Virus record (IMG/VR): IMGVR_UViG_3300038410_000079
Location: 1 to 20,469 of that record
DNA from: a virus
Strand: one strand, 5' to 3'
Length of the DNA: 20,469 bases
This document shows positions 797-14,835 of the stretch, in pieces. The translations under genes were made by a program, and so were the position numbers. The notes beneath the pieces were generated by a model, which was not told the DNA's origin, ran no database searches, and saw nothing but the letters and a program-made list of their open reading frames with translations. The first letter of the stretch is position 1; every line of letters starts with the position of its first letter.

Positions 797-1668
797 CACT
801 CCTCCTCGTCAACATCGTAATCGTCGATCCACAGTTCCGCGTCGGTGGTCACGGTGATTTTGGCCGTTAGGAAAATCACGCCTTCCGGGGTTTTTCCCAG
901 GATCGCATACTCGATCCCCTGGACCAGGATCAGCTCCCAATACTTCGTCGTCGTGACGGTGTACGTCAAGCTCTGCTTCGACAGGACGTTGTGATCTGAC
1001 AGCACATTTTTCTTGGTGATGTATGCCGAGATCACGCAGTCCGTCGCGGCCGCATCACTTGGCAGGATGCAGTATCCCTTGAGTTTCTGAGTTCCCGCTG
1101 GCGCCGCGGCACTGGAAAGCGCAGTCCCTATAAAGATGAAGGTCCCATCCGCATTGACGATCATGGTCTCCGGAACCGTGAAGGACCATCCGGTCTTCTG
1201 AATTCGCACTTTGTAAGTAGCCGCGGATAGACCGAACTCGGCGTTCCCTACCGTGTTGGTGATTTTCTCGTCCACCGATACGGTCTGCGTCACGTTGAGC
1301 AGTCGCACTGTGGCGTCAGTGATCGCCACACCACCGAGGTCCTGGAGATGCACGACGACATCATACGGTCCCTCGAACTGGTCCATCGTCACATATATGC
1401 GCTCGATCTGGATACCCGGAGTCGAGCTGCGCGGGACAACTGTCATCTCGTTGACATCCGCCTCGGCTGTGGTTATGAGTACGTCATAGAGGGCCGATGC
1501 TGCTCCGAGTTCGTTGTTGACTTCGGTTGCGGCATTCGTCGCCAGGACTCCGGCGGCCCCGTCGCGGCTGAGAAACGTGATGATATTCGCCGCATCACCG
1601 GTCTTCGGAGCGTTGGCTGCGGTGTCCCATGCCGTGAACTGAGCGTGAAAGGCTTTTCCTCTTCGCAT
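796..1668 (-). CDS. Modular virion/tail-fibre-like protein with Ig-like carboxypeptidase-regulatory domain
   Basis: A 290-aa protein with three parts. Residues 1 to about 100 begin MRRGKAFHAQFTAWDTAANA and resemble an N-terminal module seen on accessory phage virion proteins (PKTGDAANI, then DGAAGVLATNAATEV). Residues about 100-180 look like a carboxypeptidase-regulatory Ig fold: VVVHLQDLGGVAITDATVRLLN followed by GNAEFGLSAATYKVRIQKTG, the usual 'variable loop then Y-V-I' strand pattern. The last third is beta-rich with an acidic tail ending DDYDVDEEE. Such modules act in protein or glycan contacts on virions. The frame is open 12 codons upstream (to 1704), but ATG 1668 follows the previous TAA by one base and has a GGGG ribosome site. 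A surface-exposed structural role is inferred. Confidence 0.6.
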   Translation of the reverse strand: MRRGKAFHAQFTAWDTAANAPKTGDAANIITFLSRDGAAGVLATNAATEVNNELGAASALYDVLITTAEADVNEMTVVPRSSTPGIQIERIYVTMDQFEGPYDVVVHLQDLGGVAITDATVRLLNVTQTVSVDEKITNTVGNAEFGLSAATYKVRIQKTGWSFTVPETMIVNADGTFIFIGTALSSAAAPAGTQKLKGYCILPSDAAATDCVISAYITKKNVLSDHNVLSKQSLTYTVTTTKYWELILVQGIEYAILGKTPEGVIFLTAKITVTTDAELWIDDYDVDEEE

Positions 1669-1669
1669 T

Positions 1670-1873
1670 TTATGCCCCTGCCTGTTTGGTGAAGGGAAGG
1701 TCAAGAGTACAGTTCATAAACATCGTCTTGATTCCAGCAGGAAATACGTCGCTACGGGGCGTATCCTGGTGAAAGCACGCGCCCACGATCTCGCCGTCGA
1801 ACTCAGCGGCGCTCAGGTGCGTGAATACCTTGCGCTTCCAGGACTTGTAGGACCACTTGCTATTGAGTGCCAT
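1670..1873 (-). CDS. Small conserved-looking phage protein of unknown function
   Basis: A 67-aa protein starting MALNSKWSYKSWKRKVFTH. The core reads GEIVGACFHQDTPRSDVFP then IKTMFMNCTLDLPF. This shape (a short strand, 'S/CFxQDTPxxxVFP', then 'F.NCxLD') resembles small proteins that recur in environmental phages next to virion genes; none has a known function as far as I know. ATG 1873 lies one base after the TAA of the preceding gene and has a GGAGGG ribosome site about ten bases upstream, so it is preferred over the ATG at 1891. One base separates its own stop from the next ATG. No membrane segment or catalytic motif is visible. Confidence 0.6.
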   Translation of the reverse strand: MALNSKWSYKSWKRKVFTHLSAAEFDGEIVGACFHQDTPRSDVFPAGIKTMFMNCTLDLPFTKQAGA

Positions 1874-1874
1874 T

Positions 1875-2210
1875 TTATCGTCGCCCTCCACCGTATCTAA
1901 CGATATTCATATTCAACGTCTTGATATTTGCATTCAAACTATCCAGTTTCGGGGCCGCACTAGACCATTCAATTTCCATGCCCTTGATTCTATGTTCATA
2001 ATCATCAAGTCGTGCAGTTATCGTTCCTATCGTAGTCAACCATAGCCAGACTCCCCATGCTGTACCAACGCACACTCCACCCACCAGCCCCAATATCCAT
2101 GGCGTCAATTTCTCCCACGATACAAAACGCGCAGCGCATGACTCTAAAATGTCAGGTTGGGTACGACATAGATGATCGTCAGATGCTCTCACGAAAACAT
2201 CAGATTCCAT
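1875..2210 (-). CDS. Single-pass membrane protein, possible holin or lysis accessory
   Basis: A 111-aa protein with one clear hydrophobic helix at residues about 36-59 (PWILGLVGGVCVGTAWGVWL and following), preceded by a Cys-containing polar N-terminus and followed by a charged, coiled-coil-like tail (TARLDDYEHRIKGMEI, then LDSLNANIKTLNMNI). The layout of one transmembrane helix with a helical extramembrane segment occurs in XhlA-type and other small phage lysis proteins, although XhlA has its helix at the C-terminus. It directly follows two candidate peptidoglycan hydrolases, which supports a lysis role by position. There is no sequence motif that proves holin function; a structural or superinfection-related membrane protein is an alternative. 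The gap to the preceding stop is three bases. Confidence 0.55.
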   Translation of the reverse strand: MESDVFVRASDDHLCRTQPDILESCAARFVSWEKLTPWILGLVGGVCVGTAWGVWLWLTTIGTITARLDDYEHRIKGMEIEWSSAAPKLDSLNANIKTLNMNIVRYGGGRR

Positions 2211-2213
2211 TGA

Positions 2214-2771
2214 CTACCACCATGGCCTATAGGACCGATAGGTGATTTCCTGTTCAGCCTCACCATGCAATTGCATATTGAACGGCTCAACCTTGATCGT
2301 CCACTCGCCCGGTATCTGACACCCACCGGCTGCCAAGAGAACAGCTCCGGCCTCTGAGCAATAGTATCGTTTCGAGTCCTGCCGGCCGAATCCCCACTCG
2401 GCGCCCAGGGCGGGTAGGTCGTATGGCGTGCCGTCGAGTTTTGCGGCCAATACCTGCAAATTGTTGATAAGCGGGACTCGCGGCCGCCAGACGAAAACGA
2501 CTTTCCCGTGAACCTTCCCGACGCCAGCGATGCGGCAACGCGGCCAGATAGCTTGTATCTGACGTGGACTTTTGTCACAAATAGCTTGTATCTGCCGTGG
2601 GCCTTTGCCGTCGATTATGATAGCGATGTGCGTTGCCACACGATCCCGAAATGCTTCACCTGGTCCCGCCTGCCGCCAGCGCAGGGCGAATGCGAAAGGG
2701 TCCCATCCTGTTACCCCAACGATGTCACCCGCGTATAGCTGCATTCCCCGCGATAGCTGAGTGAGATTCAT
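2214..2771 (-). CDS. Permuted NlpC/P60 (YiiX/DUF830-like) cysteine hydrolase
   Basis: A 185-aa protein. It has GDIV at residues 15-18, a candidate catalytic histidine in VATHIAIII (His48) and a candidate nucleophile in YYCSEAGAVL (Cys138). This order, with His before Cys, is that of the circularly permuted papain-like enzymes (YiiX/LRAT/DUF830 group) rather than classical NlpC/P60. Known members cleave amide or thioester bonds; in phages they are candidate cell-wall hydrolases or virion-associated enzymes. The ATG overlaps the TGA of the M15 peptidase gene (ATGA), so the two are probably translated together. An in-frame 33-bp duplication inserts a second PRQIQAI unit at residues 58-79, between the His and Cys motifs. 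Substrate is unknown. Confidence 0.65.
   Translation of the reverse strand: MNLTQLSRGMQLYAGDIVGVTGWDPFAFALRWRQAGPGEAFRDRVATHIAIIIDGKGPRQIQAICDKSPRQIQAIWPRCRIAGVGKVHGKVVFVWRPRVPLINNLQVLAAKLDGTPYDLPALGAEWGFGRQDSKRYYCSEAGAVLLAAGGCQIPGEWTIKVEPFNMQLHGEAEQEITYRSYRPWW
2548..2613. repeat. In-frame 33-bp imperfect tandem duplication inside the cysteine-hydrolase gene
   Basis: Two adjacent 33-bp units (2548-2580 and 2581-2613). The first 20 bases of each, atagcttgtatctgacgtgg and the same with c for a at position 15, differ once; the remaining 13 bases have diverged further. The length is a multiple of three and the protein therefore repeats PRQIQAI eleven residues apart. It looks like a local duplication followed by drift. 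Confidence 0.85.
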
Positions 2772-3142
2772 GCGCCCGGCCCTTTCCAGCGGCGAACTTC
2801 GCCAATGTCAACGTGTACCCACGATGTATACAACCCTATCCCACCATGCCGAAATGCCTGCACGCCCTCGGCCAGCAGGGCCAGTTCTGCGGGAGTAGTA
2901 CCTTGTACCCAGATGTCCGCAGCCAGTCCCCGGCAATGAGGCGAGTCTGTCGCCGCGCCCTTGACTTCGAGGTTATGACGCCGACAGCGAAACCCGCAGG
3001 TGATATTGACAGGGCGGGCCGTGAGTTTTCGCAATTGCTCCAGCGCCAGCACCAGATAGGGGTGCACGACGGAAGCATGACCACAACAGGCGTCGCCGTG
3101 GCACTCAAATTCGGCGTCCGAAAAATGCTCAGAGAGTTTCAC
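2768..3142 (-). CDS. M15-family zinc peptidase, candidate endolysin
   Basis: A 124-aa single-domain Peptidase_M15_3-like enzyme. The family signature SxHxxGxAxD is present as SPHCRGLAADIW, giving His69 and Asp76 as zinc ligands. The third ligand is His110 in SWVHVDIG, with Asp112 next to it. An N-terminal HFSDAEFECH, as in HFSxxEF of related proteins, starts the domain, and GFRCRRHNLEV matches the GxRxxxHN segment. Known members are D-Ala-D-Ala carboxypeptidases or L-Ala-D-Glu endopeptidases that cut peptidoglycan stem peptides. No signal peptide is visible, so release would need a holin. An AAGGG ribosome site lies eight bases before ATG 3142. Its stop overlaps the start of the cysteine hydrolase. 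Confidence 0.85.
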   Translation of the reverse strand: MKLSEHFSDAEFECHGDACCGHASVVHPYLVLALEQLRKLTARPVNITCGFRCRRHNLEVKGAATDSPHCRGLAADIWVQGTTPAELALLAEGVQAFRHGGIGLYTSWVHVDIGEVRRWKGPGA

Positions 3143-3189
3143 GTTATCCCTTCAGCAGGTGAAATAAATCACTCGTCCCGAACTGATTC

Positions 3190-3447
3190 CTAACCGCAAA
3201 GGTATTGCTTGTTCAGCCGTCTCTCCAAATCCCGCGCTTTATCGGGATTTGCCTCCCACCATCCTTTGTCAAAAGCTCTATTATATTCATAAAGTTTTTT
3301 CGCCATGCGTTTGCCCATCTCGTAGGCTTCGAAAATCTTCTTCCGCGTAAGAACCGAATGTTCTGTAGAATCCTGATGCAAATCATTGATCTCCCGTAGG
3401 ACTTCACAGATCGTCCGGCAACCATGCGCGCCCCGAAATGAACTCAC
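3190..3447 (-). CDS. Small helical protein, paralogue of the preceding gene
   Basis: An 85-aa charged, helical protein. It shares with the gene just upstream the block RTICEVLREI near the N-terminus and MGKRMAKKLYEYN...FDKGWWEANPD in the second half, so the pair is a tandem duplication. No known function; cysteine and tryptophan positions are conserved between the copies (Cys in TICEV, GWW). GTG at 3447 overlaps the TGA of the upstream copy (GTGA) and follows a GGAGG ribosome site by five bases. There is a 47-bp gap to the next gene. It lacks membrane segments and recognisable enzymatic motifs. Similar small proteins near glycan or lysis genes in phage metagenomes come to mind, but I cannot confirm this. 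Confidence 0.65.
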   Translation of the reverse strand: MSSFRGAHGCRTICEVLREINDLHQDSTEHSVLTRKKIFEAYEMGKRMAKKLYEYNRAFDKGWWEANPDKARDLERRLNKQYLCG

Positions 3448-3692
3448 AACAACCTCCGCCTGAGATCTGCTTCATAATCAGCATTCTTCTCCCACCATCC
3501 CCTATCAAACTGCTTGTTGTATTCGTAAAGTTTGCCCGCCATCCTTTTCCCCATCGCCTCAGCTTCAATTAGCCGCTTGACAATTTCTTGCCCGTGTCGA
3601 AGGTAAGGTCCGCGTAATCTGACCGCATAGTCTTGAATCTCTCTCAGGACTTCGCAGATAGTCCGCAGTTTGCAGGTTCCCCGAAGACTCAT
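3444..3692 (-). CDS. Small helical protein, paralogue of the following gene
   Basis: An 82-aa helical protein, the first member of the tandem pair. It begins MSLRGTCKLRTICEVLREIQ and ends with MGKRMAGKLYEYNKQFD, RGWWEKN and a basic tail. Compared with its sister, the middle (DYAVRLRGPYLRHGQ versus DLHQDSTEHSVLTRK) has diverged while the two ends are conserved, which suggests that the conserved helices carry the function. ATG 3692 overlaps the TGA of the DxD glycosyltransferase (ATGA), so it is translationally tied to the glycan cassette. Function unknown; a regulatory or scaffolding partner would be speculation. Confidence 0.65.
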   Translation of the reverse strand: MSLRGTCKLRTICEVLREIQDYAVRLRGPYLRHGQEIVKRLIEAEAMGKRMAGKLYEYNKQFDRGWWEKNADYEADLRRRLL

Positions 3693-4477
3693 TTCAGGTA
3701 CTCCTCAATAAGTGCAAAGCGTTCGTTCCGCCCCGCCAGATGGTGATGCAGTTCTACATATTCTCCCCGGATCAGTCTCCTGAGTTCCAGCGCATGCCGC
3801 GGGGCGATCACCCCGCGCCAGTTATCGAGGCCAAAATCAATGAACTTCACCGGCACCCCCGACAAATGCACCCGCGCACGCAACCACGCCTGACTGCTGA
3901 ACCGGTGCCGGCCATGTTCCAGGGGTTGATCGATCCTCTCCCGCGGGTCGAACACGTGGAGTCCGGTCTGTGCGCGAATAAAATCATCCCATGTCGTCGA
4001 GTCATCCATCGAGTTGATCTTGCGCCATATTCCTCCCCTCGCCGTGACGTATCCCATCGGGTAGAGGTTCGGTTCCTTCACTAGAACTCGCATTACATCC
4101 GCTCCGATTGCGAAAAACTTGTCCGGCTCGTATTCTGAAAGTTTCGCGGCCAGGAAGCTGCGCTGCAGGACTACGCTGTCAATATCGTGAAGCATCACTA
4201 CGGACTCTGCGGGGAACCGAGCCGCAAAGTAATTGCGCAAAAGATGCGCCTGCCACGTCTTGAGAATCCCCGGAACTGCGCGCCTCACTCCGAAGAAATC
4301 CACCGTATCCGCAATGCGTCGGGCCTCTTCAGGAATACGTTTTCCCGACAGAACGAATCCGAAAGATATCTTTGCCTCTGGGAAAAACTTCCTCCACCCC
4401 ATGACTGCATACTTCACCACGCCAAGGTATGCGGGATGATCGTCGCATGAGAGGCTGACGATGAACTCATTAAGCAC
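3689..4477 (-). CDS. Putative GT-A-fold glycosyltransferase with DxD motif
   Basis: A 262-aa protein when started at GTG 4477. The frame is open upstream to 4645, but that part lies inside the WbqC-like gene; GTG 4477 has a GAGG ribosome site six bases away and overlaps the previous stop by eight bases. The N-terminus, EFIVSLSCDDHPAYLG, reads as the first beta strand of a nucleotide-sugar-binding fold. VVMLHDIDSVVL (residues 94-105) carries a DxD motif (Asp98, Asp100) that would bind metal and nucleotide sugar. Later segments (FAIGADVMRV, PMGYVTARGGIW, FSSQAWLRARVH) fit an acceptor-binding half. The donor, acceptor and GT family number cannot be read from sequence. It ends the sugar cassette before the two small paralogues. 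Confidence 0.62.
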   Translation of the reverse strand: MLNEFIVSLSCDDHPAYLGVVKYAVMGWRKFFPEAKISFGFVLSGKRIPEEARRIADTVDFFGVRRAVPGILKTWQAHLLRNYFAARFPAESVVMLHDIDSVVLQRSFLAAKLSEYEPDKFFAIGADVMRVLVKEPNLYPMGYVTARGGIWRKINSMDDSTTWDDFIRAQTGLHVFDPRERIDQPLEHGRHRFSSQAWLRARVHLSGVPVKFIDFGLDNWRGVIAPRHALELRRLIRGEYVELHHHLAGRNERFALIEEYLK

Positions 4478-5045
4478 AGCGGGCCTCGGCAATGGCTTGG
4501 AGTGACGATATCTTTCTGATGCCAGAAAGGTCCTGGAACTCAACCGCGATACCTGCGTCTTCGAACTTGCTGAGATCGAGATACGCCTTTCCGCTTGCGC
4601 CGGCCAGGTAAGAGTCGGCGCCGACTTCCCGGCAGATCTCGACAAGGCGTTCGGTCGATCGTGCGCATGACTTTTTGTCCATGACGATCTCAGTCTCGAT
4701 CCCCAGAAGCATCCGCAGCCGCATGATAATGGAAATATTCATCGCCACGAGATTCGCCGACGGCACTACGGCGAGATCCGCGAAGATAGAAGCGAACTGA
4801 GGCAACCGATCTATAATCTTCCGCCAGTCGCTTTCATAGTTGACGTATCGCTTCTGCATCAGTGGTTCTATGCCGTGATTGACGCTCATGGTGTACCACT
4901 GATTGTCATGGTTGAACCTGTTGAGATGTCCGCCCTTTGAGAACTGCGCATGCGTCATAATGACAAAGACATCCACCGACCGCATCTTCTCGAAATAAGG
5001 CAGCCAAGGAACTAGATTTGGTTGATGGATAGCGCATTTTCTCAT
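4470..5045 (-). CDS. WbqC-family protein
   Basis: A 191-aa protein beginning MRKCAIHQPNLVPWLPYFEK. The HQPN..PWLPYF signature is diagnostic of the WbqC family, members of which occur in O-antigen and other surface-glycan clusters. The biochemical role of the family is not well settled; involvement in amino-sugar modification is usually assumed from context. Further typical blocks are VDVFVIMTHAQFSKGGHLNR (residues about 24-43) and a C-terminal EDAGIAVEFQDL. Length is somewhat shorter than common family members (about 220-240 aa). ATG 5045 overlaps the TGA of the deacetylase-like gene (ATGA); the 12 codons upstream in the same frame are not used. Cytoplasmic, no signal peptide. Confidence 0.82.
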   Translation of the reverse strand: MRKCAIHQPNLVPWLPYFEKMRSVDVFVIMTHAQFSKGGHLNRFNHDNQWYTMSVNHGIEPLMQKRYVNYESDWRKIIDRLPQFASIFADLAVVPSANLVAMNISIIMRLRMLLGIETEIVMDKKSCARSTERLVEICREVGADSYLAGASGKAYLDLSKFEDAGIAVEFQDLSGIRKISSLQAIAEARCA

Positions 5046-5599
5046 GCAAGCAACCATCTCTCCAAGTATTCCGGTCCACAATCAAACGGATGTAGGTAGT
5101 ACCTTCCGCCGGGCTTGTATTCGTTATACATGACATGTCTCCACCCGTCCTCGAACTTCATGAGTTCTATCCCGCCCTGTAAACAGACCGACTCAGTGTC
5201 GGCGTTCCACATATTTCTCGGCGGAATAAACACCTTCGCATCGAGAATGCTACAACTCAGAAGGATCGACAGTTCCTGCGTCGATTTTGGCAGAAGTCTA
5301 TGATCCAGGTGGACGAGTCCATGGGACGCGATGCGGAATTGTCCGGTTCCCGTTGATAGATATTTCTCCCTGATCTCTGTCAGGATAGACGACGCTGGAG
5401 TGTCCATTCCGTAAAAAACGCGAAAGTCCGACATGGCCTTCCAGATATTCGGATGCAGTCGTTCCCCGCATCCGCTATGGCAGAAGATGGTGATGCCAAA
5501 GATTATCTCGTCATCGGGGCGGTGCTTAGTCAGCACCGAGACCATCTTATACAGCTTTGCCTTGTCCGTAAATTCGCAAATGTCATCTATCCGAAACAT
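5042..5599 (-). CDS. NodB-like polysaccharide deacetylase family protein (short)
   Basis: A 185-aa protein that starts directly with the NodB motif 1: MFRIDDIC (Asp5, Asp6), followed by motif 2, ASHGLVHLDHR, with the HxxxH pair His93 and His97. In this family one Asp acts as base and the other Asp with the two His bind the metal. FIPPRNMWN (residues 123-131) resembles the RPP motif 3 region and YLHPFD the LHP-like last motif. Members remove N-acetyl or other acyl groups from sugars, but several divergent relatives act on other substrates. The protein has no signal peptide or membrane anchor, pointing to a cytoplasmic, lipid- or nucleotide-linked precursor rather than finished polymer (inference). 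A GGAG site lies seven bases before the ATG. Confidence 0.75.
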   Translation of the reverse strand: MFRIDDICEFTDKAKLYKMVSVLTKHRPDDEIIFGITIFCHSGCGERLHPNIWKAMSDFRVFYGMDTPASSILTEIREKYLSTGTGQFRIASHGLVHLDHRLLPKSTQELSILLSCSILDAKVFIPPRNMWNADTESVCLQGGIELMKFEDGWRHVMYNEYKPGGRYYLHPFDCGPEYLERWLLA

Positions 5600-5611
5600 G
5601 CCTGCACTCCA

Positions 5612-6253
5612 TCAAGTCGATGCAGTTTTCTGAAAGATCACTATGAAATCAGCCTTGGCCGAAAATGGATCGCTGTTGTAAATCGTCTCGTATCCAAATC
5701 CACGGAGCTTGCGAACCATCCTCTTCGTATCGCAGAGACCGTAGGGAACGCACGACTTCCTGTGGTGGAAATAGACGTGGACCTGGGGAACGCCGTCGAT
5801 GTCGGCTGGAAGAAGCGCTTCAATTGCGGGATATTCAGATCCCTCAATGTTCATTTTGAGAAGGGAAACGACCCCTATGGATTGGCCCCTGCCGATTGCT
5901 TCCCTGATAGAGATCCCTGGAACCTGATGCTTCGGACGACTATCGAAGACGCCGCTTCCGTTTGATCGCTGCGTGGAGAACGGAATCCCTCGCCCATTGG
6001 AGGTGAGAGCGGCCGGGATGAACCGGAACATCTCCGAGTATCCGGGCGTCGCGCATCGCCGCGCATAGGTCTCCCGCGCGAGTGCGTTCGGATCGATCCC
6101 GATGATGGTGCAATCCTTGAGCCGGATCAACGCCTCCTCAAATCGAAAGGAGTTACCGAGCCCGGCGGAGATCACCACGCTCCCGCGGGGAATCGCTTCG
6201 AGATTTACAGGCCAGCCTTGGTCCGGTCTGGGGCATCCGAGCTTATCAATCAT
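5612..6253 (-). CDS. FkbM-family methyltransferase
   Basis: A 213-aa Rossmann-type SAM-dependent methyltransferase. SAGLGNSFRFE (residues 29-39) is a motif I variant binding SAM, GIDPN (52-56) provides the acidic residue after strand 2, and LLKMNIEGSEYPAIEALL (131-148) is the characteristic FkbM motif 'KxDIEGxE', here with Asn replacing the usual Asp. FkbM proteins O-methylate sugars or polyketides, and they are frequent in glycan clusters and in phages. Start ATG 6253 overlaps the TGA of the two-domain glycosyltransferase gene (ATGA). It is soluble, about normal length for the domain alone. Likely task: methyl-capping a sugar assembled by the neighbouring transferases; the acceptor is unknown. 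Confidence 0.85.
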   Translation of the reverse strand: MIDKLGCPRPDQGWPVNLEAIPRGSVVISAGLGNSFRFEEALIRLKDCTIIGIDPNALARETYARRCATPGYSEMFRFIPAALTSNGRGIPFSTQRSNGSGVFDSRPKHQVPGISIREAIGRGQSIGVVSLLKMNIEGSEYPAIEALLPADIDGVPQVHVYFHHRKSCVPYGLCDTKRMVRKLRGFGYETIYNSDPFSAKADFIVIFQKTAST

Positions 6254-7653
6254 TTCGCCCCCAACGGTCTAAACGGTTGCCCGACGAAAAACCCCTTTGG
6301 CAATGCCCGCCGGAATTTCCGGCATGGTCCGAACCGCCCGCGGTCATCATGGACGCACGCATGATCCGCGACCAGCGGCCACATGCGCATCGAGAGGAAC
6401 GACTGGTCCGAGTTCGGAAATCGGCTATATCGATTGCTCGGAGCCCCGGAGGCCACAACTGCAGCCTTCCACTCATCGAACATGGAGGGGAACCCGATTT
6501 CGCGTAGGAACGCGGTCTTCGCCCCGCAGATGCCGCCCATGATAGGTGACGTATGCTTCGGGTGGTCGCGCATGATGTGGAACGGAAGCCCGCTTTCGAT
6601 CCACTCTGCCACGGCGTCGCTTTCCCGCACGCTTGCGCGCCCGTCTGCGTCCCGAAAGACGACCCGATCATAGGATTCGTCTTTGCCCGCTTCCAGGCGC
6701 CGTAGCCGCTTGATGCGCTCGTCGAAGGGATGTACGACCGCCTCGACATCATCGCCCTGTGACCGCAGTTCATCGACCGCAGCCGCCGGCACGTTATCCG
6801 CGACGTAGAACCGCATCTTCCACCCAGGATAGCACCGGCGGAACCAATAGACGTTCTCGATTGCGCCACGGACGTAGACCGGGTCCGATCCCCACACTGC
6901 TATGGAGATCAGCCGCTTCTCTTTGGCGACTTGCTTCGCCAGTGCCTTCCCGAGATTAGCGACGATCTTGTCAGCGGCTTTGCGGGCGATGGCATGTCCT
7001 GTAACCGGCGCCATAGCTGCCCGCGCCATGCGCTTGAACGTTTCACTTCGCTGAGGCGCGGGCTTTGCGCCTTCGTGCCAGTGTTTGAGAATGACATCTT
7101 CGAGATACAGGAGCGATCCCGTCCTCTGCCCGATCATCATCCATACCGCGTCCATGTATTTCGAAGCGAAGTCGGGGCACATAAACGGCGCGTTCGTAGC
7201 CTCGACATATCGTCGTGTCGTAAAGAGGTTCACGCACATCTTCCTCCCCTGGACATAGGCATCGTTGCAGTACACGATTGCAATCCCGTCGCGTAGATTG
7301 ACACCGCACAGGATTGCGGTATCGTATCCCTTGGTCTGCCACTCCATGTCATCGGCAACCATGGAGACGAGTGTGTTCTCTTCCTGCCATCGCGTGTCTC
7401 TGTAGATACGATTGTAGTAGCTGGATAGATTCGGCTTGACGCTATCCTCGACAAGAAGCTGATATGCAGACGGATTCTGTGATTCAAGATCCCTCGCGCG
7501 GCAAATCGTGTCTCCGTCTGAGATATTAGCAAGAATCGTGAACCGCAATTGACTTGGATCGTCGGCGCGTGCGTTCGCTGACTCGATGAATCTCAGCAGT
7601 CCACCGAGTCGCCGGTACGATGGTAGGAAGAAGTTGATTGCCGAGTATTTCAC
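6250..7653 (-). CDS. Two-domain glycosyltransferase (GT2-like plus second GT-A domain)
   Basis: A 467-aa protein from GTG 7653, which overlaps the TGA of the GT-D gene (GTGA) and follows a GAGG site; the open frame further up to 7818 is inside that gene. The N-terminal half begins KYSAINFFLPSYRRLGGLLR, like a GT2 fold, with ADD at residues 100-102 (MVADDMEW) as the metal site. After a basic linker (about residues 205-245) a second domain starts ISIAVWGSDPVYVRGAIENV and holds FRDADGR (333-339), a DAD metal motif, followed by FHIMRDHPKHTSPIMGG (358-374). The latter block recurs in glycosyltransferases that I associate with phages and capsule loci. Two active sites suggest addition of two sugars in sequence or of a repeating pair. 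Donors unknown. Confidence 0.75.
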   Translation of the reverse strand: MKYSAINFFLPSYRRLGGLLRFIESANARADDPSQLRFTILANISDGDTICRARDLESQNPSAYQLLVEDSVKPNLSSYYNRIYRDTRWQEENTLVSMVADDMEWQTKGYDTAILCGVNLRDGIAIVYCNDAYVQGRKMCVNLFTTRRYVEATNAPFMCPDFASKYMDAVWMMIGQRTGSLLYLEDVILKHWHEGAKPAPQRSETFKRMARAAMAPVTGHAIARKAADKIVANLGKALAKQVAKEKRLISIAVWGSDPVYVRGAIENVYWFRRCYPGWKMRFYVADNVPAAAVDELRSQGDDVEAVVHPFDERIKRLRRLEAGKDESYDRVVFRDADGRASVRESDAVAEWIESGLPFHIMRDHPKHTSPIMGGICGAKTAFLREIGFPSMFDEWKAAVVASGAPSNRYSRFPNSDQSFLSMRMWPLVADHACVHDDRGRFGPCRKFRRALPKGFFVGQPFRPLGAK

Positions 7654-8426
7654 AGTGCATACCTCGACGGATCGTGAAGATAGGGTCTCGTGTCTACCCC
7701 TGCCCATCCATCGAAAAGAGTCCCGATATCCAAAGCCATGCCCCCCTGTTTCTTGACCATTCGGCAGTATGCCTTCGCTAACCCGCCGGCACCCACAAGC
7801 CAGATTTCGCCGCGGCAATCCCGCGAGTGAAGATCGTGCTCGATCCGCTTGAATCCGTCCGGCCAGTGCGGTTCAGAACAGTCGGGAACATATGCACTAT
7901 CTTTGTATTTGAATCGTTCCCCGGCGACGCGCCATTGCAGGATGTGCTTGATTCCGCATGACGCTTTTAACTTCTCTGCGACATCACGGCAGGTAATGAG
8001 ACCGACGAACTTCGCCCCGTGAAGAAGTTTCCGAAACTCTCCGGTCTTTTCAAGGAGAGGCAGATCCATGTGATGAAAGCACACTCGTCCGCGGCCATCA
8101 AGTTCATGGGCTTGCAACCATGTGAGGACGCCTTTGTAAACGGGCCATCTTCTTGCTTTTTCGAGATTCGGCAATCCAAGGAAATCGGCATCAATGCATG
8201 CATCATAGATCATCTTTCTGATGTATGCGATGTCGTCGGCCGATAGTCCTTCGGCAGGGAACCATCTTCCAATGCGCTCTCGGCAGACTTTTACCGACGT
8301 CACCTCCGGATAGCGAAGGACCTGATATTCTCCGTCCCCAATGCGGACAAGAGAAAACGGCCGGTGATCAGCGATGAATCTCGCTATTTTCTTGATGACC
8401 GACTCAATGTCAACAAGGGAAATCAT
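7650..8426 (-). CDS. GT-D-fold glycosyltransferase (DUF1792-like), copy 2
   Basis: A 258-aa protein. Its N-terminus carries FSLVRIGDGE (residues 24-33) and its C-terminus LVGAGGLAKAYC (210-221) plus MALDIGTLFDGWAG (230-243). These match the GT-D/DUF1792 glycosyltransferases, whose founding members are in streptococcal adhesin glycosylation; there a DxE motif binds the metal. The DGE here is a good candidate for that motif. ATG 8426 overlaps the TGA of the other GT-D gene (ATGA); the earlier in-frame start at 8510 would lie inside it. The upstream gene is a paralogue with the same signature blocks. The sugar and acceptor cannot be deduced. Conserved Trp and His residues (VCFHHMDLPLL) lie mid-protein. 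Confidence 0.78.
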   Translation of the reverse strand: MISLVDIESVIKKIARFIADHRPFSLVRIGDGEYQVLRYPEVTSVKVCRERIGRWFPAEGLSADDIAYIRKMIYDACIDADFLGLPNLEKARRWPVYKGVLTWLQAHELDGRGRVCFHHMDLPLLEKTGEFRKLLHGAKFVGLITCRDVAEKLKASCGIKHILQWRVAGERFKYKDSAYVPDCSEPHWPDGFKRIEHDLHSRDCRGEIWLVGAGGLAKAYCRMVKKQGGMALDIGTLFDGWAGVDTRPYLHDPSRYAL

Positions 8427-9217
8427 CTCTCCACCCTTGGATTGTCCTGCGCGATTTTGAATCTTTCTATCATCTGCCTGAGATACGTCCTCGTCGGGAG
8501 TTGCGCCCACCCATCGAATACCGATCCGATGTCAATGGCGATTCCGTTGTGCTGCTTGACCCACATGCAGTAGATCTTCCCAAGACCCCCAGCGCCGACA
8601 AGATGAATCCTTCCGTGCAGATCGCCCGCAGCTTCGAGTTCTCCACTGAGAGCGGAATATCTGTCAGGATAGTGTCTCTCCGTGCCGCTCCAGTTTCTTC
8701 CCATGCACGGGCGTCTCTGCGGAGGAAGATAGAAGAACTTGACCGACTTGACGCCGAGATTCATCAGCGGGGCCTGCACGTTGCGGCAGGTGATACAGGT
8801 CACATCTCGATCTTTCAGAAGTTGCCGGTAGCCATCTCTCACCTGGAGTTCTATCGCCGTATCCATTGAGCAGGTTTTCGTGATCGGAGTCGTCAGCCCC
8901 AGGGACGCCATGAACGGACGCACATTTCTCCAGCGTTGGTCAATCGTATTATGCCGCGGGGCTGGGAGTCCAATAAGGTCCGCCGTGCGGCATGCTTCGC
9001 GTATCTGCTCCGCGAGTCCCAGCATGGTGTCACGACTCATGCCGGTGGTATCAAACCACTTCGCGAATCTAGCGAGACAGTTCTGTGAGTTGGTGAACTT
9101 CGGGAATCCCAGGACAATACCCTCTCCGTCCCCGCAGCGGACAAAAGAGAATCCTTTGCCGATTCGGATGGCATCCTTCAGGACTGAGAAGACCTGGTTA
9201 TAGTCTAGCTCTGGCAC
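8423..9217 (-). CDS. GT-D-fold glycosyltransferase (DUF1792-like), copy 1
   Basis: A 264-aa protein starting at GTG 9217 after a GGAGAGG ribosome site about nine bases upstream; it overlaps the GT9 gene by 20 bases. FSFVRCGDGE (residues 23-32) supplies the DxE-type metal motif; LVGAGGLGKIYC (206-217) and IAIDIGSVFDGWAQ (226-239) form the C-terminal signature. Both blocks, and the mid-protein CRNVQAPLMNLGVKSV, align with the following gene (CRDVAEKLKASCGIKHI), so the pair arose by tandem duplication and divergence. Divergent linkers around residues 100-130 may alter acceptor choice. Cytoplasmic, no membrane segment. GT-D enzymes known so far extend O-glycans on protein, so a glycoprotein product is one attractive reading (inference). 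Confidence 0.78.
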   Translation of the reverse strand: MPELDYNQVFSVLKDAIRIGKGFSFVRCGDGEGIVLGFPKFTNSQNCLARFAKWFDTTGMSRDTMLGLAEQIREACRTADLIGLPAPRHNTIDQRWRNVRPFMASLGLTTPITKTCSMDTAIELQVRDGYRQLLKDRDVTCITCRNVQAPLMNLGVKSVKFFYLPPQRRPCMGRNWSGTERHYPDRYSALSGELEAAGDLHGRIHLVGAGGLGKIYCMWVKQHNGIAIDIGSVFDGWAQLPTRTYLRQMIERFKIAQDNPRVER

Positions 9218-10130
9218 GCGCCATGACCTCTCCGACTGTGAGTTCTTCGAGACAATTGTACGTTGCGCAATCGTAGAACGGACCAGCCTTCTGGCATGGT
9301 TGACAGGGCATGCGCCTTGTGATGACTTCTGCTTTCCTGCTGATCGGGCCGTTTTTGCTCACCAGACTTCCGCCGAAAATCACCAGCATGTTGACACAAA
9401 GGGCATCGCCGACGTGCATCAGTCCGGTGTCTGTCGTGATGAAAAGATTTGAGGACGAGGCAATCGCCTGCGCCGTCTGGGTGATGGTCAGTTTCCCGAC
9501 GAGATCCAGGTCAGCCTGCGTGTCTTTCAACTCGTCGCCGAATCCAACCTTGACAGTGCTCCCGCCCGTATACGCGCGCAATACGCGAGAGAAATCCGAG
9601 AATCCCCGCCACTGCTTCGCGCCCTTCATGCCGGCGCTGTATGTGCCGTTGCACAGAAAAACGACGGGACGCGGGAGGGCGCCGAGTGCGGCTGCTGTCT
9701 CCTGCGGAAGCTCCGTGATGGGAAAGCTCTGCTCCGGGATCGGTCCCTTATAGCCGAGTCGATAGACCAGCCGCATGTAGTAGAGAATCTCATGGACTCG
9801 GTCCGCTTCCCACATCGGAAAGGGCTCCGTCTCCTTCGCCTTCGCCTGGAAGAGACTCAGCGCTTCGCTTGCCTCACTATGCCCGGTGTAGTACCAGCGA
9901 TCATAGTCCTGGCGAACTTTGTCCCGCGGGTGGTTCACGATCTGCCCGATGATGTCCCATCGTGGAAGAATGTCGTCGAAAGCCTGCCGGCGCGCGTCCT
10001 GCCATGTTGCCGATAGACAGACATCCACCTTTCCGCTCTCCTCCATCGAGGCAAGCGCGCGCAGGGCCGGGGACATCATAATGAGATTCCCTATGCCATG
10101 CTTGAAGTAGACGATAGTCTTCGGGTTCAT
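9198..10130 (-). CDS. GT9-family glycosyltransferase (heptosyltransferase-like)
   Basis: A 310-aa GT-B enzyme. KHGIGNLIMMSPALRAL (residues 10-26) is the GT9 N-terminal motif 'GxGDxxxxxPxLRAL', with Asn in place of the usual Asp. LFITTDTGLMHVGDAL (229-244) is the donor-binding C-terminal motif (TDTGLMH), followed by VIFGGS. The tail has a Cys cluster (MPCQPCQ, then YDCATYNCL), seen in many heptosyltransferases as CxPC...C..xxxxCL. Bacterial members transfer ADP-heptose to lipopolysaccharide core or proteins; phage ones are less studied. ATG 10130 overlaps the TGA of the 92-aa orphan gene (ATGA). The missing N-terminal Asp equivalent is worth checking for activity. Donor unknown. Confidence 0.85.
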   Translation of the reverse strand: MNPKTIVYFKHGIGNLIMMSPALRALASMEESGKVDVCLSATWQDARRQAFDDILPRWDIIGQIVNHPRDKVRQDYDRWYYTGHSEASEALSLFQAKAKETEPFPMWEADRVHEILYYMRLVYRLGYKGPIPEQSFPITELPQETAAALGALPRPVVFLCNGTYSAGMKGAKQWRGFSDFSRVLRAYTGGSTVKVGFGDELKDTQADLDLVGKLTITQTAQAIASSSNLFITTDTGLMHVGDALCVNMLVIFGGSLVSKNGPISRKAEVITRRMPCQPCQKAGPFYDCATYNCLEELTVGEVMARARARL

Positions 10131-10405
10131 CTCGTCAGCTTTGCGATCGGCAGTTCAATCTCCAACACAACCCCGCTGGCGATCTCGGTTCGCCCAAACC
10201 GGGACACGCGCGTCCCTTCTCCCGTCAGATTCATGCGCTTGCCCTTGCCCAGGATGATCCTCGCCTGACACGAGAACCCGCCCGAGATTTCCGTGAGCAT
10301 ATTCACCTGGATGCTTTCTTTCAACTCCGCAGTCGATCCGAGCACCTGCTCGGCCGGTTTCACCTGAATAGGAGCCGCGCTATCTCTCGACTCTTCCCTT
10401 GACAT
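10127..10405 (-). CDS. 92-aa orphan protein inside the glycan cassette
   Basis: A 92-aa protein beginning MSREESRDSAAPIQVKPAEQ. ATG 10405 has a strong GGGAGG ribosome site about six bases upstream and overlaps the GT2 gene by 26 bases; the frame's further upstream extension is inside that gene. The central and C-terminal part alternates hydrophobic and polar residues (SIQVNMLTEISGGFSCQARIILGKGK, then VVLEIELPI; quoted by fragments), suggesting a small beta-barrel or sandwich. There are no catalytic motifs, no membrane segment and one cysteine. I do not recognise a family. Being the only non-enzyme-like gene in the cassette, it could be an acceptor, a virion decoration protein or a chaperone; all of these are guesses. 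Confidence 0.55.
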   Translation of the reverse strand: MSREESRDSAAPIQVKPAEQVLGSTAELKESIQVNMLTEISGGFSCQARIILGKGKRMNLTGEGTRVSRFGRTEIASGVVLEIELPIAKLTR

Positions 10406-11000
10406 CTGCTGCCTCCCTACCGAAGTATGGTTTGATTGTCTCTCGCCAGTAGCCGTGAAAGACGTACAGATCCTGCATGATGCAGACCCTATACCCGGAC
10501 CGGCGGAGTTTTTTGCAGTAGTCCTCGTCAACGTAGAAGAAAGAATCTTCTTTGAACCTGCCGCACTCTTCCCATGCTGTCTTGTTCGTCAAGATGAAGA
10601 ACCCCGAGAAATTCCCCGGCCGCTCGGTGCAGTCGAGGACCTTTCCGCGGTGCTGGTCGTAGACACGCTTGGCGATCGCCCGATGCGTCTCGATGTCGTT
10701 CTGCTGCGCGAGATTCGGATCGGGGAGCCGCTGCAAATGGCAACCGATACGGTTCGTGTAACACGTGAACCATCCGACTCTATCTTGTGACTTGATAGCG
10801 TGTTGGCAGATGGAATACCAGAGCGGATTGAGGAGGACGATATCGTGGTCGAGGATGAGTACCCACTCGCTGCGCGCTTCTTCCATTGCCCGATTGCACG
10901 CATACCCGACATGGCGCCCGGGCTCGAAGGGGATCACCACCGTGATGCGCATGTTCGGCACGATGGGAGAGAGAATATTCAGTTCCTGAGGAGTCGGCAT
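10380..11000 (-). CDS. GT2-family glycosyltransferase
   Basis: A 206-aa single-domain GT-A enzyme. ITVVIPFEPG (residues 19-28) is the first strand, VLILDHDIVLLNP (47-59) carries the DxD (Asp51, Asp53) metal site, and FFILTNKTAW with FYVDEDYCKKLRRSGY (155-170) gives the ED catalytic-base region and the helix typical of GT2. VFHGYWRE follows. It is short, near the core size of the fold, with no membrane helices, so it probably uses a soluble or lipid-linked acceptor. ATG 11000 overlaps the GT-B gene by 22 bases and has only a weak ribosome site; an alternative start is Met17 (base 10952). The product is likely transferred inside the cytoplasm. Confidence 0.82.
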   Translation of the reverse strand: MPTPQELNILSPIVPNMRITVVIPFEPGRHVGYACNRAMEEARSEWVLILDHDIVLLNPLWYSICQHAIKSQDRVGWFTCYTNRIGCHLQRLPDPNLAQQNDIETHRAIAKRVYDQHRGKVLDCTERPGNFSGFFILTNKTAWEECGRFKEDSFFYVDEDYCKKLRRSGYRVCIMQDLYVFHGYWRETIKPYFGREAADVKGRVER

Positions 11001-12043
11001 ACCTGATCCCAGAATTGATATGGAGCCAAGCGGAGTCTGTCACGCATCTCCTCCGGTTTGAAACACCATGAAGCGTGACCGACCTTCTCGTTATCAATCA
11101 ACAGCTTACACCCACAAAGCATCGACTCGAAAAAGACCCGCTCTCCTGCCCATCGCTCGACCGGAAGATGGAGCACGAACTCATGCGCCGAGTACAATCC
11201 CGGCATCATTCCCACGGGTCCCGCAGCGACGTGACGGACTTTCCGGTCTGGGAATGCTCGGTCCGCCTGTCCCAGGATCGAGTATGAATATTGATCGTTC
11301 TTCTCGATGAACTCAGCGACGCGATCTTTGCACTTGCGCCAGCACGGGACAAGGACCGATCCGGAAACGCGCTCGATTCCCTCCACGGCAGCGAACAGGT
11401 TCACATCGATCGCCAAAGGAAGGCAAATCGATAGTTTCGGGTCAATCCCCAAGCCCTCTACGTGTCGTTCCATGTGCGCCGGTGAGATGAAAATATTCGC
11501 GCGAGACAACCAGAACATTTGCTGACTGAGATTTAAACGCCCCAACTCGCGGTAGTCGTGTTCGTACTTGATATACGGGAGTCGGCGCTCGTAGAGAAAG
11601 AACCGGATACGGTCCATTTGATCCGGATCAAACTCGAACACGTTGTTCACCACGGCGAAGTCGGCTCCATCGAGGATGCTCTGACAGAAGTTATCGGGCG
11701 TTATCCCGACAACGTCAAACCCGAGAAGTTCCCCCACGCGGACCACTTCCGCCGAGGAGATCTCCGACCCGCCCGCTTTCGAGTTGTCCTGCACCCACGC
11801 GACCTTCTGGGTCCGGGCATTGGAAAAAGACTTGCGACACAGATAATCAGTGCCATGATTCGCAGCGACATGAGAAGCCGGGGAGGAAGGAACGCCCTCC
11901 TCCTCCGGCAGAATGCGAACGGCGCCTTTCGCCTGCATGCGCCGCGCGCGAGCCGCATCAAATGACGCGACCCCGCCTTCGAATCTGCGGGCGAGATCCT
12001 TGTCCAGGATCTCGCACCGCAGCATTTTCACAGACGCGCTCAC
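10979..12043 (-). CDS. GT-B-like glycosyltransferase with an extra N-terminal phage-type segment
   Basis: A 354-aa protein directly after the capsid gene (two-base gap). Residues 7 to about 45 (MLRCEILDKDLARRFEGGVA, then DAARARRMQAKGAVRIL) look like a small phage-encoded domain rather than a transferase and are followed by a linker rich in Glu, Pro and Ser. The transferase part begins KVAWVQDNSKAGGSEIS (residues 80-96), the 'V-W-x-N...GG-E' opening of GT4-like enzymes, and ends with the ERVFFESMLCGCKLL block (301-315) that holds the donor-binding E-x4-E pair (here Glu301, Glu306). GTG 12043 has a poor ribosome site; GTG 12031 or ATG 12025 are alternatives. It would be expressed with capsid. 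Confidence 0.7.
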   Translation of the reverse strand: MSASVKMLRCEILDKDLARRFEGGVASFDAARARRMQAKGAVRILPEEEGVPSSPASHVAANHGTDYLCRKSFSNARTQKVAWVQDNSKAGGSEISSAEVVRVGELLGFDVVGITPDNFCQSILDGADFAVVNNVFEFDPDQMDRIRFFLYERRLPYIKYEHDYRELGRLNLSQQMFWLSRANIFISPAHMERHVEGLGIDPKLSICLPLAIDVNLFAAVEGIERVSGSVLVPCWRKCKDRVAEFIEKNDQYSYSILGQADRAFPDRKVRHVAAGPVGMMPGLYSAHEFVLHLPVERWAGERVFFESMLCGCKLLIDNEKVGHASWCFKPEEMRDRLRLAPYQFWDQVCRLLRN

Positions 12044-12045
12044 GG

Positions 12046-13422
12046 CTACGACTGCCCGACCAGTTCGGTGAACGCAATCGGGACCACCGGCATGCCGTCG
12101 AATCGCGCGACGAATCGGATTGACGACTCGTCATAGATCCACCGGACGGTATCCGTGGTGTCGATCGTGAGATCCTGCCTCATCGCAAGCAGATACATCC
12201 CGAGGTCTCCCAGGACGATGTCGCCCTGCGAACCCATCGCCGGCATGTTCCGGGTGAGATAGATGGGATACCCGAATACGCTCGGGGTGACCGTGCGCTG
12301 CGTGATGAGACCGTCATAGTCCACCTGGACGATCGGCCGGTTATTGCCGTCCCGCTCATTGCGGAGCGTGGCCAGAGTGTTCTTTCGGGTCATCCACACG
12401 AGGTCGCGAAAGTTCTCATCAAGCCGCCCATCGAGGGCGCACAGGTCGGCGTAATTGATCGTGCCGGCCGTATTGCGCGCCACGCCGTTGGCCACGACCG
12501 CGGGGTCGTTGATGATGCCCAGGCACGGGACGCCCAGGGCACCGGCAGCCGCGGTATTCGTCAGGACGAGGTTCTCCAGATCATACTGGAAGGCCCTGAC
12601 GTACAACCCCGTGACGTAGTTCACCACGTTGATCAGGCTGTCCGCGATGAGCTCATCCGTGAGATGGACCAGCGCGATGCGCTTCTTCGCCTCGAACGCC
12701 AAGCGCTCGAGCTGCGGCTTGCTCGTGTGCTTCTCCTCGCCTTCGCCGGGGGAGTAGAACGTCACCCCGCCGAAGTAATTTCCCGCGGCCTGCACCAGAC
12801 GCGGGATGCGCATGGTCTGCGTGCCCATCGTCAGACGCCACACGCGAGAGAGGATCGGCGACTGCGTGAACGCGAACTCGATCACCATGGCCGGGAATTC
12901 GATCGGGACGAGTGCGCCGCCGTCGGCGACCACGCCTTCGCTCATGCCAGCCTGTTTCAGGTCCAGGCCCATGACGGTCTTGAACTGCTCCATCGCGTTG
13001 TCGTTCGACTTCGCGAGGTTGATTCCCGAGGCTGCGATACGGCTGTATTTGCCGCGACACTTCAGGATCCGCCCGAAGTTCTCCATCTCGGGACTCAGTC
13101 TCTTGAACGGGCCGCCGGAATACGCGAGCGCCGTCGCGAACTGGTGATCGTCCATCCTGCGCATCTCCGGACTCATGGACTTCCGGAAGTAGGATGTGTC
13201 GACCACGCTGCCGCAGGTGTTCTTGAACGTTCCACCATCGAGCGCTCCACCCGAACCCGGGAAGAGACGCGCAGCGTCCGACCGTCCGAGTTCGGCCTTG
13301 ATCGCGGCCGTGACATCGGGCGGGTTATCCTTGATGGCCTGGGCGATGATGCCCTTCAGTTGGTCCATCGTCAACTTCTGGGGCTCCTGGGGAGCCACAG
13401 GAGGCGTTGCTGTCGGTTCCAT
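12046..13422 (-). CDS. Major capsid protein, HK97 fold
   Basis: A 458-aa HK97-family major head protein. The first ~110 residues (starting MEPTATPPVAPQEPQKL, then a charged helix around MDQLKGIIAQAIKDNPP) resemble a delta/scaffolding domain that the prohead protease would remove. The capsid fold begins near GGALVPIEFPAMVIEF and shows the family pattern: a loop with TQTMRIPRLVQ, an acidic GEGEEKHTSKP turn, KRIALVHLTDELIADS in the long spine-helix region, and YDLENLVLTNTA before the GIIND segment. The A-domain end has PVVPIAFTEL. It assembles the icosahedral shell. A ribosome site AAGGAAG lies seven bases before ATG 13422. Its position after the protease gene is classical. Confidence 0.93.
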   Translation of the reverse strand: MEPTATPPVAPQEPQKLTMDQLKGIIAQAIKDNPPDVTAAIKAELGRSDAARLFPGSGGALDGGTFKNTCGSVVDTSYFRKSMSPEMRRMDDHQFATALAYSGGPFKRLSPEMENFGRILKCRGKYSRIAASGINLAKSNDNAMEQFKTVMGLDLKQAGMSEGVVADGGALVPIEFPAMVIEFAFTQSPILSRVWRLTMGTQTMRIPRLVQAAGNYFGGVTFYSPGEGEEKHTSKPQLERLAFEAKKRIALVHLTDELIADSLINVVNYVTGLYVRAFQYDLENLVLTNTAAAGALGVPCLGIINDPAVVANGVARNTAGTINYADLCALDGRLDENFRDLVWMTRKNTLATLRNERDGNNRPIVQVDYDGLITQRTVTPSVFGYPIYLTRNMPAMGSQGDIVLGDLGMYLLAMRQDLTIDTTDTVRWIYDESSIRFVARFDGMPVVPIAFTELVGQS

Positions 13423-13458: not shown

Positions 13459-14835
13459 CTAGTCGAGCTTGCCCTGGAGCTTTCTGACCTGCGCACGCGC
13501 GGACTCTCCGAGGGCTTCACAGACCGCGCGCTTGACATCTTCGCCGGAGACTTCGACAACCGGCTCCGCAGCCTTTGTCGGCTGGGGCGCCAGATCGAGC
13601 ACCGACTCATCAGGTTGTGACTGTGGCGGAGTCGCGGCGGGATCACTGGGGGTCGCTGGCGCCTGGTCGGCAGCGGCGGGTCCCTGCGACAGATTCTTGA
13701 TTCTTAGATCGATGACTGCCTTCATGCCGTCGCGGTTGTCCTTGACGGCGTTGGAAAATGCAATTGCGTGGGGAAGCATGAGATCATAGGTCTCATCGAG
13801 AACCCCCTTGGCCTGCTTGGGATCGGCGAGTCCCCACAACTCATTCATCATCGCGTAGAAGATGCGCTCCAGAGCCATTGACGGGATATCCTGCGCAACC
13901 CTCTGCGCAACGGATTTGATCTCCTGGACGGATGCGGTCTTCTTCGACTTGTCCCACTCAGACGCGCAGATCGCGACAGCCTGATCCTGATCCTTCCCAG
14001 CGTCTCGATTCGCGCGAATGCAGCGCGACATGAACGCACCTTCTTTCTCGCCCTTCTCGGGAGAACATGCCTTCCCTTCGATCTTCTCAATCGAGAAGTT
14101 CGGGGCCGCGTCCTTGCGCTTGTTGCGGGCGATGTAGGCACAGATCTTCTTTGCGCTCTCCTCACTGTGACCCTCGTGCTCCTGCATGTAGGCAACGCAT
14201 CCGTCAAAGCCGTTCTTGAACGTGCCGTCGGCGTTGAAATACCGGCTGTCTTTCTTCTTGAGTTCGATCTCCACGGTCATCACCTGCTTTTCCTCGGCTG
14301 GCGATTCTTGCTTAATGCCAAAGGCGAAGGCCACGTTCGCCTTTTCAAGATCCGCATCGCTTGCGGGGAGTTGGTCAACGCTCTTTATCATGGTCGCCTC
14401 GGGGTTCGCAGGGCAGGAGACCTGGGAGTATTCGACGAGTTCCCATTTCCTGACCTTTTGCCCACCATTGGGAAGTGCATCGGCCTGGTGGACGTTGAAC
14501 CCGATGGACCAATAAGGCATATAGCCTTCCTTGGCCTTCCGGTAGAGACGCTTCCCGGTATCGTCGGGGAAGTACTTGGTCTTCGCCACGATGCCCTTTG
14601 CCCCATTTGCGTTCGTCCCGATCGTCAGGGACAGAGGCTTCGCGATGGGTTCCATGCCGGCCTTCGGGTCGAGTCCGTGTTGCTCGAGGACCACAGGCAT
14701 CCCGTGCATCATCATTCCGTCGGCGAGCATCACGTCTTGACTGCGGTCGGAACTCTCCGTCGAGATGAAGTGGTCGAGGACCAGGTTTTCATCATCGAAC
14801 GCCTTGACTTCTGAACGAAATACTGCCCTATCCAT
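13459..14835 (-). CDS. Prohead protease (S78/U35-like) fused to Cys-pair modules and a scaffold-like tail
   Basis: A 458-aa protein with an N-terminal HK97-type prohead protease domain (about 1-155): EQHG supplies the catalytic His53, PYWSIGF the catalytic Ser110, and LVEYSQVSCPANPEA closes the domain. The family normally measures about 150-220 aa, so more than half the protein is additional. Residues about 197-300 hold two similar helical modules, GFDGCVAYMQEHEGH...ICAYIARNK (Cys213, Cys232) and AFMSRCIRANRDAGK...AICASEW (Cys272, Cys290). The C-terminus is helical, then Pro/Ala/Gln-rich, and ends with a basic amphipathic helix ARAQVRKLQGKLD, as in scaffolding proteins. Met186 follows an AGG-containing stretch and could be an internal start. 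A strong AAGGAGG site precedes ATG 14835. Confidence 0.85.
   Translation of the reverse strand: MDRAVFRSEVKAFDDENLVLDHFISTESSDRSQDVMLADGMMMHGMPVVLEQHGLDPKAGMEPIAKPLSLTIGTNANGAKGIVAKTKYFPDDTGKRLYRKAKEGYMPYWSIGFNVHQADALPNGGQKVRKWELVEYSQVSCPANPEATMIKSVDQLPASDADLEKANVAFAFGIKQESPAEEKQVMTVEIELKKKDSRYFNADGTFKNGFDGCVAYMQEHEGHSEESAKKICAYIARNKRKDAAPNFSIEKIEGKACSPEKGEKEGAFMSRCIRANRDAGKDQDQAVAICASEWDKSKKTASVQEIKSVAQRVAQDIPSMALERIFYAMMNELWGLADPKQAKGVLDETYDLMLPHAIAFSNAVKDNRDGMKAVIDLRIKNLSQGPAAADQAPATPSDPAATPPQSQPDESVLDLAPQPTKAAEPVVEVSGEDVKRAVCEALGESARAQVRKLQGKLD

Follow-up and report, generated by a model that had tools for sequence, protein, structure and literature searches.

Why a phage should carry ten sugar enzymes within the operon that builds its head, and what those enzymes act on, is the question raised by IMG/VR virus record IMGVR_UViG_3300038410_000079, whose 20,469 bp are analysed here in full (hereafter, the window). 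The virion genes of the window lie on the minus strand, and right behind the HK97-type major capsid gene stands a cassette (3689-12043, minus strand) of seven glycosyltransferases (GTs), an FkbM methyltransferase, a CE4/NodB-fold deacetylase, a WbqC protein and one orphan, in the order GT-B, GT2, orphan, GT9, GT-D, GT-D, two-domain GT, FkbM, deacetylase, WbqC and GT8-like GT. We propose, with a probability of about 0.8, that this cassette is a virion-glycosylation pathway of the head operon, acting in the cytosol on capsid and tail tube with their C-terminal serine as the likely acceptor.

An original prediction made from the DNA letters had described ten sugar enzymes and one orphan directly after the capsid gene and in one direction; the sequence bears this out, with the eleven genes all lying on the minus strand. 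Pfam and PHROGs matches back most of the assignments, and together with a family alignment and AlphaFold2 (AF2) models they uphold the seven GTs as well as the FkbM, NodB-like and WbqC proteins. The junctions, measured after the gene starts had been corrected, show overlaps of 22, 26, 4, 20, 4, 4, 4, 4 and 8 bases plus a single 12-base gap, in agreement with the predicted, mostly overlapping arrangement of 4 to 26 bases. The surrounding genes are those of an HK97-type siphovirus head module (PF05065 capsid, PF04860 portal, terminase, canonical order), transcribed in the order terminase small subunit, terminase large subunit, portal/Mu F-like fusion, prohead protease, HK97-fold capsid and cassette. 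The cassette had also been placed between capsid and head-tail joining genes; the capsid gene does adjoin it, but the connector homologue does not touch it, since the genes at 796-3692 intervene, namely two small paralogues (3190-3692) and then, at 796-3142, the genes of an M15 peptidase, of a product of unknown type and of a protein containing a single hydrophobic segment, plus two others. At 11.2 kb, the resulting capsid-to-connector interval exceeds all others measured.

A second IMG/VR contig (L002; 7,043 bp, 99.7% identical) spans the portal, protease, capsid and first five cassette genes, ending inside the first GT-D gene, and because it shows the same join between capsid and cassette, the capsid-side join is not an assembly artefact; the concern that unrelated contigs had been fused is thus not borne out on that side. 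Most cassette proteins searched matched few or no isolated phages, as might be expected of an assembly chimera or of a bacterial polysaccharide operon that had entered a phage by chance, yet such an origin is hardly credible given the second contig and the recurrence of the same order and place in 13 further contigs of the capsid clade and in 42 lineages.

To find these relatives, single-protein scans of viral contigs with the capsid, terminase or last GT were of little use, returning at most a near copy or a single distant phage, and alignments were needed. An alignment of the two-domain GT yielded 74 viral loci, and a capsid scan yielded 15, namely L002 and 14 others, one of them (L099) identical with the contig L023. 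The capsid, protease and portal of L023 are 46-48% identical to those of the window and are accompanied by GT-B, GT2, GT9, GT-D, GT-D and two-domain GT (here split into two genes), with order and place unchanged; the tail of its cassette differs from that of the window, consisting of a sulfotransferase and a second GT-B, followed by the connector. The GT-B gene, g21, was the next recognised gene after the capsid in 13 of 13 informative contigs of the capsid scan (L092-L101, L103-L105), with one unassigned open reading frame (ORF) in between in L094; L102 was left out of this count, as its contig stops at the capsid gene. In most of the sufficiently long contigs the GT core follows g21. The distal genes are variable; those of L094 include the FkbM, deacetylase, WbqC and last GT of the window.

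A scan of public viral contigs with g21 only, blind to the capsid, gave 73 loci, 65 of which have an HK97 capsid gene upstream of g21, usually as its neighbour; these amount to 42 non-redundant lineages with a GC content of 31-63%. Of the eight loci lacking an upstream capsid, two lie on contigs with <1.3 kb before g21. The connector gene forms the downstream border of the cassette interval in the relatives, and the smallest version consists of capsid, GT-B, one unassigned gene or gap, GT9 and connector (2.4-3.1 kb; L130, L164, L152, L127). Larger cassettes insert varying GTs, methyltransferases, sulfotransferase, deacetylases or epimerase, with that of L131 holding a PIG-L deacetylase, a hexapeptide transferase, an epimerase and several GT2 enzymes. 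The suggestion that relatives might carry a swapped cassette at this locus is thereby confirmed, as a conserved core with an exchanged tail occupies the capsid-to-connector interval in many lineages. The set had further been thought to be of unusual size, and the window does encode seven GTs, but the size is not unique to it: comparable cassettes occur in related phages at other places in the head-tail operon; those of L018-L020, for instance, are large and lie several genes downstream, after the connector or gp10-like genes. That dozens of diverse relatives share this arrangement is a strong indication that the viruses give their particles a sugar coat that they encode themselves.

GT-B and GT9 track the capsid gene as closely as the head genes do: Spearman's rho of pairwise distances against those of the capsid was 0.75 for g21 and 0.79 for GT9, compared with 0.71 for portal and 0.79 for protease, and only 0.27 for the outer domain of the two-domain GT (g15C); the permutation p of 0.003 is the lowest value obtainable with 300 permutations. 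Purifying selection acts on every cassette gene compared, with ratios of non-synonymous to synonymous substitution rates (dN/dS) of 0.13-0.35 for each of them (L023 versus L115). Because the outer enzymes are swapped between lineages, the outer sugar would differ while the attachment step stays. The linkage to the capsid gene and the location in the head operon also speak against glycosylation of phage DNA bases by the cassette, a very improbable role even though phage GTs can put diverse glycans on DNA (work cited in PMC12619734), and no base-modification gene was recognised among the annotated genes of the window.

The cytosol is where capsids and tails are made, and it is the simplest site of action for the cassette, because no convincing membrane protein, flippase, polymerase or lipid-carrier transferase is encoded in it. 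Hydropathy peaks of the cassette products reach at most 1.68, against 1.62 in the soluble capsid protein, revealing no convincing membrane segment, so that the export of a host-surface polymer would not be served; a Pfam scan of the cassette found no flippase, polymerase or lipid-carrier transferase, nor any GtrA, GtrB or GtrC domain of the kind that marks serotype-converting gtr systems. These observations bear on the possibility that the cassette modifies the host surface (lipopolysaccharide core, capsule or another glycan) late in infection, for example against progeny sticking to debris or against superinfecting phages. In favour of it, GT9 comprises the heptosyltransferases, WbqC is tied to O-antigen loci, and some bacterial genomes carry g21-like genes, two of them adjoining GT9-like genes. 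We nevertheless regard a host-surface role as quite improbable, given the missing export functions, the tight capsid linkage and co-inheritance across contigs of widely differing base composition, and the serine common to the C-termini of capsid and tail tube. We did not accept WbqC as proof of O-antigen synthesis. A 398-genome sample contained only partial bacterial relatives of g21, a sample of about 300 Pseudomonadota genomes gave no match to the last GT (g11), and the two-domain GT (g15) matched there with its C domain only, in four genomes, fused to another region. In one bacterial genome (G206; L012, L016, L017), three g15C-like matches share an identical score and follow each other at a distance of exactly 8,226 bases, which may reflect a tandem repeat or an artefact of assembly. 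MT838042 (L006), labelled a bacteriophage, was set aside, as it resembles a fragment of a bacterial polysaccharide locus.

Capsid and tail-tube glycosylation has been reported in mycobacteriophages, and one paper puts the glycans at the C-termini (PMC12363180, PMC12619734, PMC11600133), which led us to inspect the C-termini of the corresponding proteins here. The capsid protein ends in serine in 40 of 42 lineages and in threonine in one, and the tail tube ends in serine in 13 of 13, against a background of 12.8% (615 ORFs of these contigs). Terminal serine is far from general in the other proteins, occurring in 5/30 portals, 3/34 proteases, 1/40 g21 proteins, 3/30 GT9 proteins, 0/19 connectors and 0/17 gp10 proteins, and in the capsid itself positions -2 to -5 vary. 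Among cultured phages, Che8 (capsid ...KTGS, tail ...SDGS), Firecracker of cluster O (...LVGS and ...KGDS) and Tweety have serine at the end of both proteins, and phi18:1, which has a GT and a methyltransferase in its head operon, has threonine at the end of both capsid and tail protein. The capsid of Giles does not end in serine, and neither do those of eleven phages lacking a known head-operon GT, whose whole genomes were not scanned for GTs (Caulobacter W2, Bradyrhizobium, Javan630, Dagobah, Oscillospirales, Erysipelothrix, Faecalimonas, GBK2, Idiomarinaceae, Andrew and NatCom_21982). The glycan is thus probably attached to shell and tail-tube proteins at their final serine. The preference of the original prediction for the virion as the target, which had rested on co-expression with the head genes, gains support from this common serine, from the core genes that track the capsid gene and from the lack of convincing membrane segments.

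Several observations weigh against this interpretation. The glycan itself is a prediction, the virus being known solely through environmental DNA, and relatives of GT9 and WbqC are also found in bacterial surface-polysaccharide pathways. Both search alignments were built from cassette-bearing phages, so the counts do not give the share of capsid relatives that lack a cassette, and the lineage counts are not independent, because the lineages share ancestry. The window's capsid ends in serine, but the gene for its tail tube falls outside the window. Synechococcus phage Sc-Yong805-2 (L187/L176) has serine at the ends of its capsid and of the protein in the tail-tube position, with no GT among the ten proteins scanned. 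Finally, the capsids of L018-L021 end in tryptophan, yet L018-L020 carry large cassettes. These tryptophan-ending capsids, which possibly signal another acceptor, fit a scheme in which the virion is glycosylated elsewhere (at another capsid site, on a decoration protein or on a fibre) and the terminal serine is kept for assembly; a candidate virion protein near the cassette (796-1668, weak Ig-like/CarboxypepD_reg match) and a 796-amino-acid protein in L104 could serve in this way. We consider such a scheme rather unlikely, because the two proteins that share the last residue, and that residue only, are unrelated to each other and are the very ones reported to be C-terminally glycosylated in mycobacteriophages.

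Our preferred reading, glycosylation of the virion at the terminal serine, can be set beside known systems. Cluster O mycobacteriophages (Corndog, Firecracker), in which capsid and tail tube are reported to be modified (PMC4351075, PMC11600133, PMC12363180), resemble the window in having an O-methyltransferase and three tandem transferase genes within the head operon, and Firecracker shares the terminal serine of both proteins with the window family; they differ in having three GTs instead of seven, in placing these genes just before the protease instead of after the capsid, and in their hosts. As to a shared ancestry of the GTs with Che8 gp110 or Corndog gp38, a tblastn search with eight cassette proteins in a collection that includes Che8 and Firecracker gave no mycobacteriophage among the organisms listed, folds not being compared. 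In Che8 (cluster F), the phage GT gp110 is reported to be essential for capsid glycosylation (PMC12363180); its capsid and tail subunit end in serine as in the window family, whereas gp110 is numbered far from the head genes gp1-gp13, among which there is no multi-enzyme cassette. Chlorovirus PBCV-1 also uses virus-encoded GTs to assemble the glycan on its major capsid protein, a process predicted to take place in the cytoplasm (PMC9614988), as is proposed for the window, but it is a eukaryotic virus with an N-linked glycan and an unrelated capsid fold. Vibrio phages VH2_2019 and V-YDF132 have a comparable cluster of deacetylase, WbqC-like protein, methyltransferase and GT just before the terminase genes, thus in a different location and among different head genes. 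Cellulophaga phi18:1 and relatives (Helsingorvirus) carry a homologous Mu F-like protein, a homologue of the GT2 enzyme g20 (30%) and a methyltransferase in the head operon, but only a single GT, which precedes the protease; we know of no published glycan for this group. It may be that phages as unrelated as mycobacteriophages, Cellulophaga phages and this uncultivated group all follow one rule, building a glycan on a C-terminal serine (or threonine) common to capsid and tail tube, the virion's two most abundant proteins, with g21 and GT9 fixed in the head operon in the present case and the enzymes for the outer sugar exchanged like a serotype; we hold the chances for and against such a rule to be evenly balanced.

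In the pathway that we envisage, the cassette would be transcribed late, together with the capsid genes, and its soluble enzymes would act in the host cytosol on the most numerous subunits of the virion, with host sugar nucleotides as donors. The core transferase (GT-B g21, with GT9 g18) would attach the initial sugars to the capsid protein, the most likely site being the hydroxyl of the C-terminal serine, and would also modify the tail tube, which has the same terminal residue in relatives. The GT2, both GT-D, the two-domain and the GT8-like enzymes might then extend the chain, FkbM might O-methylate it, the CE4-fold enzyme might strip acetyl groups and WbqC might add a further modification of unspecified chemistry; across lineages, the exchangeable outer enzymes would finish the sugar by methylation, sulfation or deacetylation. 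The likely benefit would be an altered particle surface, giving protection, masking or adhesion. Phage virion glycosylation has been documented in a few mycobacteriophages, with an effect on antibody recognition; if our reading holds, it would be ancient and heritable in a broad group of uncultivated phages, with a core tied to the capsid gene and an outer sugar open to exchange, and a terminal serine or threonine on capsid and tail tube together with a capsid-adjacent GT would offer a cheap sequence test for any phage genome.

Turning to the individual enzymes, all on the minus strand, g21 (10979-12043) is the first cassette gene and part of the core; its GT-B assignment is weak in Pfam (PF13524) and was settled by an alignment of its 8-member family. 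GT2-type g20 (10380-11000; phrog_14179, glycosyltransferase, 4e-17) has a DxD-like DHD motif and is followed by the orphan g19 (10127-10405, 92 amino acids), which is poorly conserved although its position between GT2 and GT9 is fixed in the window and four relatives. The second core enzyme, g18 (9198-10130), is a heptosyltransferase-like GT9 (PF01075, 3.6e-12). The GT-D fold enzymes g17 (8423-9217; PF22882, 2.5e-12) and g16 (7650-8426; PF22882, 5e-16) are paralogues with 34% identity, and a scan with a GT-D alignment turned up a solitary GT in an unrelated phage contig and a single bacterial gene. Next come the two-domain g15 (6250-7653; phrog_14945, GT, 1.4e-9), whose C domain has an RDAD motif and whose counterpart is split into two separate genes in relatives, and the FkbM-type methyltransferase g14 (5612-6253; PF05050, 6e-5), with homologues in the L094 and L100 cassettes. 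Neither g13 nor g11 has a Pfam or PHROG match, and both were modelled with AF2 together with relatives. The model of g13 (5042-5599; predicted local distance difference test score, pLDDT, 84) matches CE4/NodB polysaccharide deacetylases in Foldseek, and FRxDD and HGxxH are conserved; that of g11 (3689-4477; pLDDT 91.6) is GT8-like with a GT-A fold and an invariant DxD, the nearest structures being glycogenin and LgtC. Between them lies the WbqC-like g12 (4470-5045; PF08889, 9.8e-31). The g15 C domain, deacetylase, WbqC and g11-type GT also occur together as a recurrent block in other phage contigs (L028, L029, L033, L042 and L051), away from any head genes recognisable with the baits and hidden Markov models (HMMs) used.

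Upstream of the cassette, likewise on the minus strand, the major capsid protein (12046-13422, 458 amino acids, ending ...ELVGQS; PF05065 Phage_capsid, 2.8e-34) is preceded by the prohead protease (13459-14835), assigned by its position, its homologues in relatives and a gene order as in cassette-bearing relatives, by the portal fused to a Mu F-like head protein (14836-17112; PF04860, 2.2e-28; PF04233, 3.8e-10) and by the PBSX-family terminase large subunit (17117-18424). Downstream, the connector homologue (464-799, minus strand) was assigned from a weak match and from homologues 34-43% identical in L023, L095, L100 and L104. The small paralogues g10 and g09 (3190-3692, minus strand; 58% identical) carry a TICEVLREI motif; a pattern search of viral contigs gave no match for this pair, and HMMs later found relatives, which adjoin FkbM genes of related cassettes in L019, L094 and L100. 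The L131 cassette contains a comparable small gene as well, and these proteins are putative accessories of glycan cassettes. The endolysin-like M15 peptidase (2768-3142, minus strand; PF08291, 1.9e-17; phrog endolysin, 4.1e-27) forms, with the small protein that has one hydrophobic segment, a lysis-like module (1875-3142) in the head-tail operon.

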